From positions 1-34,568 of IMG/VR virus record IMGVR_UViG_3300027899_000038: a stretch of 34,568 nucleotides of DNA, one strand, 5' to 3'. The notes below the pieces were generated by a model. The model had not been told where the DNA came from. It saw only the letters and a list, made by a program, of their open reading frames with translations, and did not search any database. Of this stretch, positions 7,588-21,674 are shown one piece after another. The stretch is from a virus. The position numbers and the translations under genes were made by a program. The stretch's first letter is position 1, and each line of letters begins with the position of its first letter.

Positions 7588-7970
7588 TCACAGACGACGA
7601 TATCACCCTAAACGATAACGACCAGCTTCACGAAATCTTCAGAGACAGATTTATCATAGCGTGGGAAGCCATGCAGTCCGAAGTCCACCACATCGCAACG
7701 AATCACGGCTGGTGGGAAGCAGAGCGTAACCCCGGAGAGAGCATAGCCCTCATGCACAGCGAGCTGTCCGAGGCCCTCGAAGGGCTTCGAAACGGCAACC
7801 CGCCTGATGATAAACTTCCGGATCACGACAGCGTTTCGGTAGAACTTGCCGACTGCGTTATCCGGATCATGGATTATGCTGAAGGAACCGGACTTGATAT
7901 CGCCGGCGCCCTGGCCGCAAAAATCGAGTATAACCGGCAGCGGGAATATCGGCATGGGAAGGAGTTTTGA
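7584..7970 (+). CDS. MazG-like NTP pyrophosphohydrolase
   Basis: A 128-residue all-alpha NTP pyrophosphohydrolase. It shows the family metal-binding pattern EXXE(12-28)EXXD: Glu60 and Glu63 (HSELSEAL) and, 23 residues later, Glu87 and Asp90 (VELADCVIRI). These enzymes hydrolyse NTPs or dNTPs to the monophosphate and are common in phages, where they may balance nucleotide pools or blunt the stringent response. AAGGAG at 7574-7579 serves the start. The next gene is 112 bases away, so the early operon probably ends here. Confidence 0.85.
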   Translation: MITDDDITLNDNDQLHEIFRDRFIIAWEAMQSEVHHIATNHGWWEAERNPGESIALMHSELSEALEGLRNGNPPDDKLPDHDSVSVELADCVIRIMDYAEGTGLDIAGALAAKIEYNRQREYRHGKEF

Positions 7971-7975
7971 TTTCA

Positions 7976-7998
7976 GTTGTTAAGGATTATTTAACAAC
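7976..7998. terminator. Hairpin after the MazG-like gene, possible terminator or operator
   Basis: GTTGTTAA (7976-7983) and TTAACAAC (7991-7998) form a perfect eight-base stem around a seven-base loop, six bases after the stop codon of the MazG-like gene. It lacks a following T-run, so intrinsic termination would be weak. A repressor-binding dyad is the alternative. Confidence 0.4.
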
Positions 7999-8030
7999 TC
8001 AAATCAGCAAGTCCACAATGACCATAAACA

Positions 8031-8065
8031 ATAGTGGTTAGTTCCAAAATGGAAACAACCACTAT
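8031..8065. promoter_or_regulatory. Long inverted repeat before the 8083 gene, possible operator or leader hairpin
   Basis: ATAGTGGTT (8031-8039) pairs with AACCACTAT (8057-8065), and inside it GTTCC pairs with GGAA-C with single-base bulges. The loop is about five bases. The hairpin ends five bases before the AAAGGAGAAAGAG ribosome binding site of the next gene. It could be an operator dyad or an RNA hairpin controlling translation. Confidence 0.45.
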
Positions 8066-8082
8066 CACAAAAGGAGAAAGAG

Positions 8083-8748
8083 ATGCAAAAGAACTACAGA
8101 GTAGAAATAACCGGAATGAACGATCTGTTACTGCATAAAGACAACATCATCTGGTCGGAACGTATAAAAAAATGGGCCAAAGACCCAACCAACAAGAAAA
8201 TCTCCGTTGCGGGTGATGATAGAACACCAGCGTGGTCATGGCTGGGATGTTGTTATGACGCCAACGGAATTATGACGATGGATTCCGATTGTATCATGTC
8301 GATGTTGCGGGAAGGCGGAAAGAAATGTGCTGCCCCTACCGGGAAAGGCAGCATGAAATCCCAAACACAGAGCGGAATTATCTGTGCAGAGATTGGCTGG
8401 CCGCTGATTATCAACGGTAAAACCATCAACTACAAAAAGATGCTCGATGTGCTTGCAAACGAACTTGATTTTGAAGTTCATGAGCAGTTCGCCAGAGATA
8501 ACGGGTTTGAACTGTTCGTCAAGAGGGCCAAAATCGGCAAGAACAAGCATGTCAGAGTCCGGCCAAGACTGTCTAAATGGAGCTGTTCGGGAACCTTGAT
8601 GGTTACGGATAGACAGATCACGGCTGAAATGCTTAAAAACATCCTGCTTTTCGGAGGAGCTTACTGCGGGTTAGGTGATTGGAGACCCGGAAGCCCTTCA
8701 CCCGGTCAGTTCGGAACGTTTATTGCGGATGTTAGCGAGATCAAGTGA
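8083..8748 (+). CDS. Unknown protein upstream of the pentamer array, 221 aa
   Basis: A 221-residue protein with a strong ribosome binding site (AAAGGAGAAAGAG). I do not recognise the family. It starts with a strand-like segment (YRVEITGMNDLLLHKDN), has a Gly/Lys/Ser-rich loop (APTGKGSMKSQTQSG) near residue 85, and ends with a distinctive Gly/Pro-rich motif (GLGDWRPGSPSPGQFGTF). Codon use is more AT-tolerant than in the early genes. It has its own upstream dyad and is followed directly by the GGTNN array, so it looks like the first gene of an independently acquired cassette placed between the two terminase genes. Confidence 0.75.
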   Translation: MQKNYRVEITGMNDLLLHKDNIIWSERIKKWAKDPTNKKISVAGDDRTPAWSWLGCCYDANGIMTMDSDCIMSMLREGGKKCAAPTGKGSMKSQTQSGIICAEIGWPLIINGKTINYKKMLDVLANELDFEVHEQFARDNGFELFVKRAKIGKNKHVRVRPRLSKWSCSGTLMVTDRQITAEMLKNILLFGGAYCGLGDWRPGSPSPGQFGTFIADVSEIK

Positions 8749-8761
8749 TATTATTTATATT

Positions 8762-9305
8762 GGTAAGGTCCGGTCGGGTACGGTCAGGTAAGGTGCGGTA
8801 AGGTAAGGTATGGTATGGTAAGGACTAAGGCGAGGCGAGGTGTGGTAAGGTGCGGTCAGGTGTGGTGTGGTAAGGTTTGGCGAGGTCTGGTAAGGTTTGG
8901 TCAGGTTTGGTAAGGACTAAGGTACGGTAAGGTGCGGTACGGTAAGGCCGGGTATGGTAAGGTAAGGACTAAGGCTCAGGTGCGGTAAGGTCAGGTGTGG
9001 TGGGGTGAGGTTCGGTGAGGTCTGGTTTGGTAAGGTAAGGACTAAGGCCAGGTTTGGTAAGGTACGGTAAGGTGCGGTAAGGTGAGGTAAGGTAAGGACT
9101 AAGGCGTGGTCAGGTGAGGTAAGGACTAAGGCCTGGTCGGGTGCGGTAGGGTGCGGTAGGGTGGGGTAAGGTAAGGTAAGGACTAAGGCTTGGTGTGGAG
9201 GGGTATGGTGTGGTCGGGTGAGGTTAGGTTTGGTAAGGTAAGGACTAAGGCCAGGTTTGGTAAGGTACGGTGCGGTAAGGTAAGGTGCGGTAAGGTAAGG
9301 ACCAA
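8762..9305. repeat. GGTNN pentanucleotide array in nine blocks punctuated by GGACTAA
   Basis: The region parses without remainder into 96 five-base words, nearly all GGTNN (one six-base unit, GGCTCA, at 8973), in nine blocks of 12, 17, 9, 13, 10, 4, 10, 11 and 10 words. Every block is closed by the seven-base mark GGACTAA (GGACCAA at the last), at 8822, 8914, 8966, 9039, 9096, 9123, 9180, 9242 and 9299. The word before each mark is always GGTAA, and the word after it is nearly always GGC-type. The NN pair takes almost every value. TAA within GGTAA closes all frames on the plus strand, so it is non-coding there. GG at five-base spacing is also the pattern of two-tier G-quadruplexes. Confidence 0.95.
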
Positions 9306-9341
9306 GGCAATAACCAAAATAAAATATTATATGGAGGCGAA

Positions 9342-9791
9342 ATGACAAGGCCAGAAAATCTGTTGTTTCCAAGTCGGATGACAACAAAGATCGATGTGGA
9401 TATGATTATCCAAAAAATCGGAATACCAAAAGAAGGAGACAAGATCACATATGAAGTGATTGAGGATTTGATCGGGTTAAAAAAGAATTCTTCACGGTGG
9501 AGGACAGTTGTGTATACATGGCGCAAAAAACTCTTTGTTGAAAACAATCTCGTGTTGAAATCACTGATGAACAAAGGGTTTTTAGTGTTAAATCCATCTG
9601 AGCGGGTATCATATGCAGACAGGAAAATCGTGTGCGGCAGAAATATAATTTTAAAGGCTGTCAATATCGTTCAGGCTACAGATATGGACAATTTGGATGA
9701 AGAAACGAAAACAAAATATAATTTTATAACATCAATTCCAAACAGATTGAGATTGGCTACACTGGTAGAATCAAAAGAAATGCCATATTGA
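9342..9791 (+). CDS. Unknown protein downstream of the pentamer array, 149 aa
   Basis: It has a strong ribosome binding site (GGAGG at 9333-9337) between the last array mark and the ATG. The 149-residue product is basic in its middle and could contain a winged-helix-like DNA-binding region (YEVIEDLIGLKKNSS, then RWRTVVYTWRKKLFVENN). The codon use is clearly more AT-rich than in the terminase that follows. I do not recognise the family. Its position directly behind the array makes it a candidate array-binding protein, which is inference. Confidence 0.7.
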   Translation: MTRPENLLFPSRMTTKIDVDMIIQKIGIPKEGDKITYEVIEDLIGLKKNSSRWRTVVYTWRKKLFVENNLVLKSLMNKGFLVLNPSERVSYADRKIVCGRNIILKAVNIVQATDMDNLDEETKTKYNFITSIPNRLRLATLVESKEMPY

Positions 9792-9794
9792 ATC

Positions 9795-9822
9795 GACCGA
9801 TTTCAGACCGATTTCTGACCGA
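9795..9822. repeat. Eleven-base direct repeat before the large terminase
   Basis: GACCGATTTCA (9795-9805) and GACCGATTTCT (9806-9816) are adjacent, followed by a partial third copy (GACCGA). They lie between the array-associated gene and the large terminase start. They may be a regulatory site or a recombination scar. Confidence 0.6.
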
Positions 9823-9836
9823 AAACAAAGGCCATC

Positions 9837-11780
9837 ATGCAACTCCAACTAATCAACACCCCCAAACACCCACCCCTCCCCATCACCCCTGCATGGCTCC
9901 CCCCCGCCATGCAGGCCCCAGGCACACGCCTAAAAATCCGCTTTTCCGCAGCAGACCGTCACGCCATGCGGCGCAAAAAACAAATCCCCGTCTCCGAATG
10001 GGCGGAACGATACCGGTTCATCCCAAAAGACGCAGCCCTCCCCGGCCCCTGGCGAAACTCAACCGTGCCCTACATGGCAGGCGTTATGGATGCCGCCATG
10101 TTCCCGTCTGTCCAGCAGATCATCCTCTGCTGGCCCCCGCAATGCGGAAAATCAGACGGCGTCAACACAGTCATCGGCTACCTTACCGACCGCCGGCCCG
10201 GAAACGTCCTCTATGTTTTCCCAGATGAGCTCACCGCCCGGGAAAACAACCGCGACCGCATCACCCCCATGTTTCAAGACAGCGACCAACTCAAAAAATA
10301 TTTCACCGGATATGCAGACGACACAGCCTCTCTTTGCCTGCGTCTCAAACACGCAAAAATCTACATGGCATGGGCAAACTCAGCCTCCCGTATGGCCAAT
10401 AAACCCCTCCCCTACGTCGTCCTGGACGAAGAAGACAAATACCCATCCACCCCAAACGCCAAAGAAGCCTCACCAGCCGACCTGGCCAAAAAGAGAACCC
10501 GAACATTTTCTCACATGAGAAAAGTCTTCCGCATGTCAACGCCAACAGTTGAGTCCGGTGCAATCTGGAAAGCCCTCACAGAAGAAGCCGAAGTCATCTT
10601 TGATTATTGGGTACGCTGCCCTGCCTGCAACTCGCTCCAACAGATGGTATTCAGCCAGATCAAATGGCCGGATACCGAAAGAGACCCCCGGGCCATCGAA
10701 ACAGAGAAACTGGCGAAATACCACTGCATATCCTGCCCGGATATCTGGGACGACAGCCGGCGCAACATGGCAGTCCGGGCCGGAGAATGGCGAGACCGCG
10801 AAAAGGGCCTGTCCGTCGCCGCCGTTCTAAATAGCAGAAGACCAACGACCATCGGTTTCCACCTGCGATCCTACGTCTCCCGGTTTGTGTCGCTCTCCGA
10901 ATCAGCCGCAGCCTTCCTATGGGGCCTAAAAGATCGAAACAAACACAAAGATTTTTGCAACTCCCACGAGGCCGAACCATGGCGGGAATACTCTCACGAG
11001 AAAACAGACGACGCCATTCTGGCTCTCAGAGACGACAGACCCATGGGCCGGGTGCCTGGCGGAGGAGTTGTCTCCGGACTGGTTGCCGGCATCGACACCC
11101 AGGACGACGGCTTTTTTTACGAGATCCGCGCCTTTGGCTTTGGCCTCGAACAGGATTCATGGCAGATAAGATCAGGATTTGTAACATCCCTCGAAGCCCT
11201 CAAAACAGTGCTGTGGTCAGACGCCTACCTTGACCCGGACGGAAAACGCTACATGGTCTCCCGATCCCTTATAGACGCCATGGGCCACCGAACTTCAGAA
11301 GTTTACGACTTCTGCCGCATTAACCCCGGCCGGATATTCCCCACCAAAGGCGAGCGCACCATGCGTCAGCCCCACGCCTGGAGCCGGATCGATTTCTATC
11401 CCGGCACCAATAAACCCATCCCATCTGGCCTGCAACTGGTGCGCGTGCATACCACCCACTTTAAAAATCAACTCGCGTCCATGCTCGAAGTCCCCTTTGC
11501 AGACCCTGGATCCTGGAAATACTGCGCCGACACCACAATCGACTGGGCAACCCAGATGACGGCTGAATACATCGCAGAAACCGGCTTCTGGGAAACAAAA
11601 GGCAACCGCCCAAATCACGCCTGGGACTGCTCAGTCCTGGCCCTTTGCGCCGCCGACATGGCCGGATTCCGGTTTTTGCAGCCCTCCCCCAAAAAACGAG
11701 ACCCACAACACACCCGAAACGAAGACACAGAACGCGGCGGATGGATCGAGCGCAGCGGCAGCGCATGGATCAACAGATAA
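9837..11780 (+). CDS. Phage terminase large subunit, GpA family
   Basis: A 647-residue packaging motor and nuclease, close in length to lambda gpA (641). The ATPase has a P-loop-like PPQCGKSD at residues 100-107 and a Walker B VVLDEED at 194-200. A zinc-ribbon insertion follows (CPACN...YHCISC, near residues 260-300). The C-terminal nuclease region shows an acidic strand (GIDTQDDG) and a conserved late motif (NHAWDCSVLAL). A GpA-type terminase implies cohesive-end-like cutting. The start has AAAGG a few bases upstream; later in-frame Met codons at residues 25 and 44 are alternatives. The compact GC-rich codon use contrasts with the gene just before it. Confidence 0.93.
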   Translation: MQLQLINTPKHPPLPITPAWLPPAMQAPGTRLKIRFSAADRHAMRRKKQIPVSEWAERYRFIPKDAALPGPWRNSTVPYMAGVMDAAMFPSVQQIILCWPPQCGKSDGVNTVIGYLTDRRPGNVLYVFPDELTARENNRDRITPMFQDSDQLKKYFTGYADDTASLCLRLKHAKIYMAWANSASRMANKPLPYVVLDEEDKYPSTPNAKEASPADLAKKRTRTFSHMRKVFRMSTPTVESGAIWKALTEEAEVIFDYWVRCPACNSLQQMVFSQIKWPDTERDPRAIETEKLAKYHCISCPDIWDDSRRNMAVRAGEWRDREKGLSVAAVLNSRRPTTIGFHLRSYVSRFVSLSESAAAFLWGLKDRNKHKDFCNSHEAEPWREYSHEKTDDAILALRDDRPMGRVPGGGVVSGLVAGIDTQDDGFFYEIRAFGFGLEQDSWQIRSGFVTSLEALKTVLWSDAYLDPDGKRYMVSRSLIDAMGHRTSEVYDFCRINPGRIFPTKGERTMRQPHAWSRIDFYPGTNKPIPSGLQLVRVHTTHFKNQLASMLEVPFADPGSWKYCADTTIDWATQMTAEYIAETGFWETKGNRPNHAWDCSVLALCAADMAGFRFLQPSPKKRDPQHTRNEDTERGGWIERSGSAWINR

Positions 11781-12281: not shown

Positions 12282-13532
12282 ATGAAATGGAAAAACCGCA
12301 TCATCGAAACCGGCATTGCAAACCCATCAGAACTCATTGCAAACCCGGTCAATTTCCGAAAACACCCCAAACGGCAACAAGAAGCCATCAACGGCAGCCT
12401 CGATGCTCTTGGATGGATTCAAAACGTAATCGTCAACAAACGCACCGGCCGTATCATCGACGGACACCTGCGTGTTGATCAGGCCATTGCCCATGGGGAA
12501 GCCGCCGTACCGGTTCAATGGGTCGATTTATCCGAAGAAGAAGAAGGGCAGGCACTGTTATCGCTTGACCCGATTGCAGCCATGGCGGAAACCAACAAGC
12601 AATCCATGACCGATATCCTGAAGCAGATAAACGCCACCCAGGACGCCCTGGCGCCCTATCTTGAGGAAATCGCAAAATCAAGCGGGATTGATATTGGGGA
12701 TATTCTCGGCAAAGATGAAGATGATCCCCCTGAAGAAAGCGAGGCCGAATCGTTTCGGGTGAAATGGGGGGTGGAAAGCGGGCAGATGTGGGAGCTGGGG
12801 GAGCATCGGGTTTTGTGCGGGGATTGTACGGATAAACTATTTTCAGAAATGTTGATGGATGGATTAAAAGCCAATTTGGTTATCACCGATCCACCTTATG
12901 GCGTCTCATACAGTGACAAAAACACGTTTTTAAATGCGATCGATAAAGGTAACCGAATCCAAACTGAAATTGAAAACGATCATTTGTCAAAAGAAGAAAC
13001 AAAAATATTATGGAAAAAAGCATTCAATGTCATGAATCAAGTCATGGACAATGGCGCAACTGTTTATTGTTTCATGCCCCAAGGTGGCGATCAGATGATG
13101 ATGATGATGATGTTGGATGGTGCAGGAATAGAACCGAAACATGAGCTGATATGGTTGAAAAATAATCATGTTTTGGGCCGTGTGGACTATGCATACAAAC
13201 ATGAACCGATATTATACGCATGGAAAAACACTGGTCATAAATTTTATGGTGGATTCCAAACCAGTATCATAGAATGTAATCGACCGACAAAAAGCAAATT
13301 TCATCCGACCATGAAGCCAGTTGAATTGATAGAAAGATTGATATCAAATTCCAGTTTACAAAATCAAATAATTTACGATCCATTCCTCGGTTCCGGCACC
13401 ACCCTAATCGCCTGCGAAAACCTCCACCGCAAATGCCGTGGCATCGAAATATCCCCTGAATACGTCGCCGTAACCATAGAACGCTGGAACCGCCTAACCG
13501 GCAAAATCCCAACATTAATTTCAACCCTGTAG
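12282..13532 (+). CDS. ParB-domain DNA adenine/cytosine-N4 methyltransferase, beta class
   Basis: A 416-residue protein with an N-terminal ParB/Srx-like domain (NFRKHPKRQQ..., IIDGHLRVDQA) in roughly residues 15-85. The methyltransferase follows: the catalytic DPPYGV motif at residues 203-206 comes before the SAM-binding motif (DPFLGSGTT) at 366, the beta-class order. It would methylate an amino group (N6-A or N4-C) in DNA, probably protecting phage DNA from restriction. Bases 12830-13370 have visibly more AT-rich codons than the two ends, so the target-recognition part appears to have been exchanged. A run of six Met codons lies at 13098-13115. The stop TAG is supplied by the following REPIN. 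Confidence 0.9.
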   Translation: MKWKNRIIETGIANPSELIANPVNFRKHPKRQQEAINGSLDALGWIQNVIVNKRTGRIIDGHLRVDQAIAHGEAAVPVQWVDLSEEEEGQALLSLDPIAAMAETNKQSMTDILKQINATQDALAPYLEEIAKSSGIDIGDILGKDEDDPPEESEAESFRVKWGVESGQMWELGEHRVLCGDCTDKLFSEMLMDGLKANLVITDPPYGVSYSDKNTFLNAIDKGNRIQTEIENDHLSKEETKILWKKAFNVMNQVMDNGATVYCFMPQGGDQMMMMMMLDGAGIEPKHELIWLKNNHVLGRVDYAYKHEPILYAWKNTGHKFYGGFQTSIIECNRPTKSKFHPTMKPVELIERLISNSSLQNQIIYDPFLGSGTTLIACENLHRKCRGIEISPEYVAVTIERWNRLTGKIPTLISTL

Positions 13533-13614
13533 GGGCGACCGGCCGGTCGCCCTCGATCTTGCACACAATCTCGTTTATGGCGTGCTACCAGGGCGACCGG
13601 CCGGTCGCCCCTAC
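13529..13614. repeat. REPIN-like paired palindrome, subfamily A (copy d)
   Basis: 86 bases with perfect arms and the subfamily A spacer (TCGATCTTGCACACAATCTC...). Its GTAG overlaps and provides the TAG stop of the methyltransferase, so the insertion may have set the current C-terminus. Confidence 0.95.
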
Positions 13615-13643
13615 ATATTACATCATAATCACAGGAACAACCC

Positions 13644-14387
13644 ATGAACCTTATCACCATCAATTCAAAAAACCTTAAACACCTACCCCACAACGCCCGA
13701 AAACTAAAAACCGCCAGAGGCATCGAAAAACTCTCAGAACAAATCCGAATCCACGGCTTCCAAAACCCCCTAAACGTCTGGTTAGACCCAGAAGACGGCA
13801 AATACGCTATCATCGCCGGAAACCACCGTTTCAAAGCAGGTTTTTCAATCGGCATGCGCGACTTCCCTTGTGTCATCTACGAGGGCACCAAAGACCAGGC
13901 ATACGCCAGATCAATATCCGATAACAAAATGTCAGAACTCACCACATGGGATTATTCCGAATTCTGCGTTGCAATAAAAAATCTCGAAATAACCCCGATA
14001 GACTGCGGTTTCGATAAAATCAAATTCTTTGAAATATCAGAATTCAACGAAAAAGAAGAATTAAAAGAAAGAATCAATAACGAAAAAGAATATCATTACA
14101 AACAATTAGATATCGACAAACTCCTTGCAAAATACAGCCAGAAACTGATGCAGATATGGCAGGACGACCCGGAAAGCATGACCAAATCCACATTGGTATG
14201 CCTGCCAAACGATTCCGGCACAAAAGCCATCATGATCATGACAGACCCCAGCACCAGCGACATCATCACAGAAATTAGGCGCTATGCAGAAGCCGGAGAA
14301 AAATCCCCCCTTGAAAAATTAACCCAATCAATGGTCAATTATGAAAAAATCGTTGCAGATTATCGATCAAGCCATCAGCCAACATAA
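13644..14387 (+). CDS. ParB/Srx-like protein, IbrB-type partner
   Basis: A 247-residue protein with an N-terminal ParB-like nuclease/sulfiredoxin fold: LPHNARKLKT near residue 13, LSEQIRIHGF near 35, and a signature GNHRFKAG near 68. The rest is helical and charged with no recognisable domain. Its 3' end overlaps the PP-loop gene by 47 bases, indicating coupled expression. ParB-like plus PAPS-reductase-like pairs are known as IbrB/IbrA in E. coli and occur in phages and islands; their biochemical role is not settled. DNA modification or regulation is inferred. Confidence 0.75.
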   Translation: MNLITINSKNLKHLPHNARKLKTARGIEKLSEQIRIHGFQNPLNVWLDPEDGKYAIIAGNHRFKAGFSIGMRDFPCVIYEGTKDQAYARSISDNKMSELTTWDYSEFCVAIKNLEITPIDCGFDKIKFFEISEFNEKEELKERINNEKEYHYKQLDIDKLLAKYSQKLMQIWQDDPESMTKSTLVCLPNDSGTKAIMIMTDPSTSDIITEIRRYAEAGEKSPLEKLTQSMVNYEKIVADYRSSHQPT

Positions 14388-21588: not shown

Positions 21589-21594
21589 CAAATA

Positions 21595-21674
21595 GTTGAA
21601 ATGGTTGAAAAGGTTGAAAGGGTTGAAAAGTTCTCAACCCATCAACCCCGTCAACCCCATCAACCCAATCAACC
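21595..21674. repeat. Nine-base repeats forming an extended inverted repeat
   Basis: Four GTTGAAANG units are followed by five CAACCC(N)AT-type units. GGTTGA in the first half is complementary to TCAACC in the second, so the RNA could pair in several registers as a long hairpin. It ends just before the AAGGAGG of the major capsid gene, where it could stabilise or regulate the capsid message. Confidence 0.85.

Follow-up and report, generated by a model that had tools for sequence, protein, structure and literature searches.

The window analysed here, the whole stretch of 34,568 nucleotides of the virus record IMGVR_UViG_3300027899_000038, carries terminase, primase and other phage genes together with a long run of five-base words, which begin with GGT, end in a variable dinucleotide and are interrupted by a recurrent stop mark. 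The question raised by this locus is what such a run is for and which neighbouring proteins act with it. An earlier note had named tandem protein-binding sites, a structured RNA and slippage among the possible meanings, and this interpretation is supported in part, although its options did not include a guide RNA whose code is non-contiguous.

An answer is offered by VIPR, a phage-carried CRISPR-like weapon described in a 2026 preprint (PMC13142463; bioRxiv 2026.04.26.720920) and defined there by an ancestral RAMP protein, Vipr, by guide RNAs with GGY/NN words (vrRNAs) and by a vap gene. According to this preprint, a vrRNA is built from 9-16 YNNGG repeats, in which GGY is constant and NN hypervariable, and a conserved 3' tail, which is structured in the SUSP1 clade; the RNA is held in a Vipr filament through GGY, and DNA is read through NN, one base being skipped between pairs. 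Vipr itself is a small RAMP homologue with an RRM core and a G-loop. The system has been proposed to be a forerunner of CRISPR whose guide code is non-contiguous; seven types are distinguished, the system of Escherichia phage SUSP1 being type II. No other VIPR paper was found in a literature search. The locus in the window is very probably a phage VIPR system which would act as published and is composed of a vipr gene, a vrRNA array with nine guides and a vap1-like gene (Table 1).

Table 1. Features of the locus in the window
Feature	Position	Strand	Description and basis
vipr	8083..8748	+	221-aa Cas7/RAMP-like predicted RNA-binding protein; phrog_4652, PDB 36pp, AlphaFold/Foldseek
vrRNA (guide RNA) array, very probable	8762..9305	+	nine guides, 96 GGYNN words; parse and statistics
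Guide block 1	8762..8828	+	12 words + GGACTAA
Guide block 2	8829..8920	+	17 words + GGACTAA
Guide block 3	8921..8972	+	9 words + GGACTAA; starts with GGT instead of GGC
Guide block 4	8973..9045	+	13 words (six-base GGCTCA counted, + 12 words) + GGACTAA
Guide block 5	9046..9102	+	10 words + GGACTAA; start in common with block 9
Guide block 6	9103..9129	+	4 words + GGACTAA
Guide block 7	9130..9186	+	10 words + GGACTAA
Guide block 8	9187..9248	+	11 words, one of them GGAGG, + GGACTAA
Guide block 9	9249..9305	+	10 words + GGACCAA
vap (VIPR accessory protein), very probable	9342..9791	+	149 aa, related to SUSP1 vap1; phrog_5926, BLASTP

Anatomy of the Array

When positions 8762-9310 are parsed, the array splits exactly into 96 words and nine 7-base stops. 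The words comprise 85 GGTNN, 9 GGCNN, one GGAGG and one six-base GGCTCA, and the total of 96 × 5 + 1 + 9 × 7 is 544 bases. All nine blocks end in GGTAA and a stop, which is GGACTAA eight times and GGACCAA in the last block, and seven of the eight following blocks start with GGC, the exception being block 3 with GGTAC. Blocks 5 and 9 have their first 20 or so bases in common. Of GGTNNGGTNNGGT the window has 62 copies, every one of them inside the array (expected, 0.20), and dinucleotide-preserving shuffles never approach the array pattern. T or C occupies the third position of 76 of the 77 window words counted, and the NN positions use 15 of the 16 dinucleotides, TG being absent, with an entropy of 3.51 of 4 bits; pooled over the array loci described below, the entropy is 3.91 of 4 bits (1107 words). 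The earlier note had described this division to the base, including the single off-length unit, the constant block end, the usual GGC start, the common start of blocks 5 and 9 and the nearly complete set of dinucleotides, and all of its numbers that were checked proved correct.

The array starts 13 nt after the stop codon of vipr, vap starts 36 bases after the array, and one strand is used throughout. Blocks 6 and 2, with 4 and 17 words, respectively, fall outside the published range of 9-16 repeats, and block 6 is probably too short for guide function. The structured RNA proposed earlier is not supported, as the predicted folding of the array RNA does not surpass that of its shuffles (z −0.82), and the G-quadruplex tract of the same note is not needed as an explanation; no structure is predicted for the RNA, and the constant GGTAA-GGACTAA terminates every block. 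A search of Rfam gave no match in eight sources. Open reading frames on the minus strand across the array (for example, 8917-9387) are by-products of the stop-poor ACCNN sequence and have no independent support. Elsewhere in the window there are a short tandem repeat with an 11-base unit, CCGTTTCCATA, in 4.6 copies (17662-17712) and two 9-base tandem arrays of complementary flavour, AAATGGTTG and TCAACCCCA (21590-21674).

The Adjoining Cas7-Like Protein

The gene directly upstream of the array gave no Pfam match and belongs to phrog_4652, a family of unknown function which is also matched by SUSP1 Vipr (1.4e-96). In the PDB, its family has a clear match to one sequence only, 36pp, "SUSP1 Vipr protein", with E = 8.5e-10 for the single sequence and 1.6e-30 with the family profile, and in BLASTP against SUSP1 Vipr (KT454805) the identity is 26% over 214 aa (E = 1e-16). 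Among 26 family sequences, across A1 and A2, four residues are invariant, G192, G196, R201 and G211, and these sit in the C-terminal glycine-rich motif G-x-G-D-x-R-P...G-x-F typical of RAMP proteins, which reads GLGDWRPxxxxxGQFGTF in the G-loop of the window protein. The AlphaFold2 model computed from the family alignment has a pLDDT of 83.5 and a pTM of 0.81, and all Foldseek matches in the PDB below E = 1e-3 are CRISPR effector structures, mostly Csm3/Cas7-type subunits. By its predicted fold, therefore, the gene product is a Cas7/RAMP-like protein. The window protein forms a long branch without firm placement in the Vipr tree, and no close relatives of it were found in viral contigs.

Recurrence and Punctuation

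When IMG/VR was scanned for seven consecutive GGTNN words, at least 120 stretches were returned, some of which are simple satellites and many of which are true word arrays. The latter consist of blocks of about 8-13 different words, in up to 22 runs, with a separator specific to the contig, such as GGCA, GGCTAATG, GGCAGTTRN or long AT-rich linkers. Clustering of open reading frames placed a homologue of vipr close to the array, usually adjoining it on the same strand, in 30 of 36 loci including the window; in the remaining six the array lies within about 450 bases of the edge of the stretch examined. An unbiased scan of the collected loci for XYZNN words of period 5 returned only GGT or its complement ACC, plus a single GAC array. 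The exact punctuation of the window, GGTAAGGACTAAGGC, had seven unrelated chance matches in viral contigs and none in an array.

These results bear on the view that the locus is a slippage-generated low-complexity satellite or an assembly artefact. Duplication does occur, as the common start of blocks 5 and 9 indicates, and slippage may create words, but it leaves the fixed GGY with free NN, the fixed comma and the conserved neighbour gene unexplained. As the same architecture with vipr is found in many unrelated contigs from different metagenomes, this recurrence refutes the explanation, which is given almost no credence here. Accordingly, the earlier statement that the array is neither CRISPR nor a simple satellite stands, both on its period-5 words and on its recurrence beside a conserved gene, and the contrary case named at that time, a satellite with no conserved neighbours, is overturned by the 30 loci with vipr. 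The suggestion that relatives of both flanking genes accompany such arrays in other contigs was likewise borne out.

In the VIPR reading, the separator type tracks the Vipr clade: GGCA is found in L016, L030, L033, L121 and L125, a clade with support of 100/100 in the Vipr tree, and GGCTAATG in L021 and L134. This suggests that Vipr or its processing partner reads the separator. A second accessory family of about 150-170 aa stands beside seven VIPR loci (the five GGCA loci, L081 and L095); it is phrog_15946 in the members scanned, most of its loci are GGCA-punctuated, and it is probably another vap family.

The Accessory Gene and Its Genomic Slot

The gene downstream of the array matches phrog_5926 (E = 2.6e-6), of which SUSP1 vap1 is a full-length member (1.1e-75). 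Its pairwise BLASTP match to SUSP1 vap1 is weak (E = 0.003), and that to the vap-like gene of L136 gave E = 7e-7; by analogy only, the product is predicted to be DNA-binding. Taken together, the Cas7-like protein, its homology to 36pp and the membership of the downstream gene in the PHROG of SUSP1 vap1 identify the locus as VIPR in the sense of PMC13142463, at the probability given above.

L136 (IMGVR_UViG_3300020048_000562) is a related phage with a terminase 78% identical to that of the window. Its slot between a pyrophosphatase-like gene and the large terminase gene, terL, contains a different Vipr-like gene (phrog_4652, 1.4e-11), about 30 GACNN words and then the vap-like gene (L136:3047-4293), whereas in a further relative, L137, the slot is occupied by unrelated genes (ORFs of 304 and 256 aa). 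The slot (window 7970-9837, L136 3025-4852, L137 7301-10001) thus holds GGTNN-VIPR, GACNN-VIPR or unrelated genes in three related phages, and looks like an exchange hotspot. The GACNN array in the same slot is also a possible change of anchor word.

Proximity to the terminase, the end of the array lying 532 bases ahead of terL (9837-11780), and the presence of ParB-like genes at 12282-14387 invite a function at the DNA level, namely tandem sites bound in packaging (pac/cos) or in partition. Nevertheless, a GGYNN array is missing from the vicinity of terL in the terminase relatives L137 and L138, in other contigs it is vipr rather than the terminase that precedes the array, and the SUSP1 vrRNAs are RNA (PMC13142463), so this function is highly improbable for an array that is best read as VIPR guides.

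As to the genes farther downstream, ParB-like and DNA-methyltransferase PHROGs are matched both by 12282-13532 and by its neighbour, 13644-14387, which looks like a partial relative of it, and 14341-15219 is a PAPS-reductase-like auxiliary metabolic gene (phrog_424).

The One-Base-Skip Code

Megablast revealed that SUSP1 shares a baseplate segment of about 500 bases with elements integrated into a dozen or so E. coli genomes. Six E. coli elements were taken, and the guides of SUSP1 and tootiki were slid along them with 0-4 skipped bases. Against L212, an E. coli SUSP1-related satellite, SUSP1 guides 1, 2 and 4 matched with a one-base skip at 20/22, 19/22 and 18/20, respectively, while 100 word-shuffles of each reached at best 18, 18 and 16, that is, none of the 100 attained the score of its guide; the matches appear at skip 1 only, with no comparable signal at any other skip. 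For tootiki guide 1 the match is borderline (17/20, reached by 3 of 100 shuffles), and nothing was found in the six elements for SUSP1 guide 3 or tootiki guides 2 and 3. A distant blastn of the capsid and baseplate regions of SUSP1 against E. coli gave no match. The published one-base-skip rule is thus reproduced independently, with targets reached through homology only.

The mismatches of SUSP1 guides 1 and 2 to L212 lie at the end of the guide, in the words that adjoin the tail, and, by this parallel, the constant GGTAA words that precede GGACTAA in the window probably belong to the tail and not to the guide.

The same matches weigh against a regulatory RNA of the TRAP type. TRAP binding sites repeat a triplet every 5 bases, and the fixed triplet of period 5, in an array located between the vipr and vap genes and sharing their strand, resembles them, so that a ring or filament protein could bind GGU-NN repeats and autoregulate the operon at the level of translation or termination, the NN being mere spacers. 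Against this, NN is near-uniform (3.9 of 4 bits in 1107 words) in arrays of up to 22 runs, the NN of SUSP1 spell satellite DNA targets at skip 1, and the neighbour protein is no TRAP homologue, having a predicted Cas7 fold and homology to Vipr. A TRAP-like element is consequently very unlikely, and the VIPR reading, in which NN carries information, is retained. What endures of the earlier proposals is that of tandem protein-binding units, here very probably in a non-coding RNA.

Targets of the Guides in the Window

No convincing target of the window guides was found in the collected loci, three scans of viral contigs and 297 genomes of the class of L148's genome, and these negatives say little. 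Exact eight-word cores of blocks 8, 2 and 4 matched 2, 4 and 4 viral contigs, respectively, with no significant extension. The best candidate, block 4 in a terminase gene of L156, has its skipped base away from the wobble position and is probably a chance match. In the 297 genomes, blocks 2, 4, 8 and 1 gave 0, 1, 0 and 1 matches at the allowed mismatches, and reversed-pattern controls gave two in all, so the apparent guide matches are at chance level. Written out as a target pattern, block 2 is GANGANGTNAANGCNCANGTNGTNAANTTNGANCTNAANTTNCANTT, with 32 fixed bases. Two apparent scores of 20/22 in the collected loci are the same pre-selected matches, and the codon-phase statistics of the NN words in the window are not significant (p = 0.26).

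SUSP1 guide 1 also had 43 matches in viral contigs, which were rejected as a common peptide motif (mostly NVSKAGNY) with the rest of the guide unmatched. This peptide, conserved in the 43 contigs (L169-L211) and caught by the gapped 16-base pattern, is unrelated to VIPR.

Comparison with Known Systems

Judged from sequence, the window has several of the features that characterize VIPR, namely a Vipr homologue, GGY/NN repeats, a vap gene and carriage by a phage, with a weak pairwise vap match and with blocks 6 and 2 beyond the usual repeat number. It resembles the VIPR of SUSP1 (KT454805, 36pp) in its small Cas7-like Vipr, its vap1-family gene, its GGY/NN words and its location on a phage, but the Vipr proteins are only about 26% identical. 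Furthermore, SUSP1 has four separate vrRNAs of about 100 nt, one upstream and three downstream, with long structured tails (PMC13142463), whereas the window has nine guides in direct succession, placed between vipr and vap, which are set off by a 7-base comma and lack predicted structure. The GGCA-punctuated loci are similar in their compact arrays, very short separator and adjacent vipr, and differ in their 4-base separator, Vipr clade and accessory family, phrog_15946.

The Cas7 backbones of class 1 CRISPR-Cas systems (Csm/Cmr, type VII) are alike in predicted fold and, by analogy, in an RNA-guided filament with periodic base skipping, but the guide information in the window is split into dinucleotides. 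Direct repeats of 20-40 bases with unique spacers are absent, their place being taken by period-5 words, and no cas families were found among the window proteins scanned.

Proposed Mechanism and Significance

Since vipr, the array and vap are all on one strand, their co-transcription is likely, and the array would give a single transcript. Small, Cas7-like Vipr molecules would then bind successive GGY triplets and form one filament per block, in which the NN pairs are presented. These would pair with double-stranded DNA in NN-skip-NN-skip spacing, the skip falling usually on the codon wobble base, and such pairing may block the gene expression of competing phages or satellites, the presumed targets. 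The comma, GGUAA-GGACUAA-GGC, would end one guide, start the next and shift the 5-base register; under this model, discrete RNAs with ends at or near GGUAAGGACUAA are expected.

Array anatomy, the homology of Vipr and vap, the Cas7 fold prediction, the recurrence of arrays beside vipr and the skip-1 code of SUSP1 come from the sequence analysis itself, and from these the transcription, the filament, the processing of the commas and the identity of the targets are inferred. The locus in the window is a divergent member of the kind of VIPR already described, with a compact, unstructured array and a 7-base comma. A more far-reaching possibility, held only tentatively and thought less probable than its opposite, is a distinct architecture in which a run-on, comma-delimited array without folded tails stands in the vipr-vap operon, Vipr itself reads GGUAA-GGACUAA as stop and start, and the lineage may have changed its anchor word, as the GACNN words of L136 suggest. 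Part of this may already be recorded in the supplement of PMC13142463, as that preprint speaks of staggered arrays and "a related consensus" with reference to its supplementary figures.

The locus, a divergent VIPR of an uncultivated phage whose guides are very compactly arrayed, is useful for asking what marks the limits of a guide when a folded tail is absent. In addition, the one-base-skip code was reproduced independently, from the sequence outwards, and the punctuation of the arrays was found to follow the Vipr lineage.
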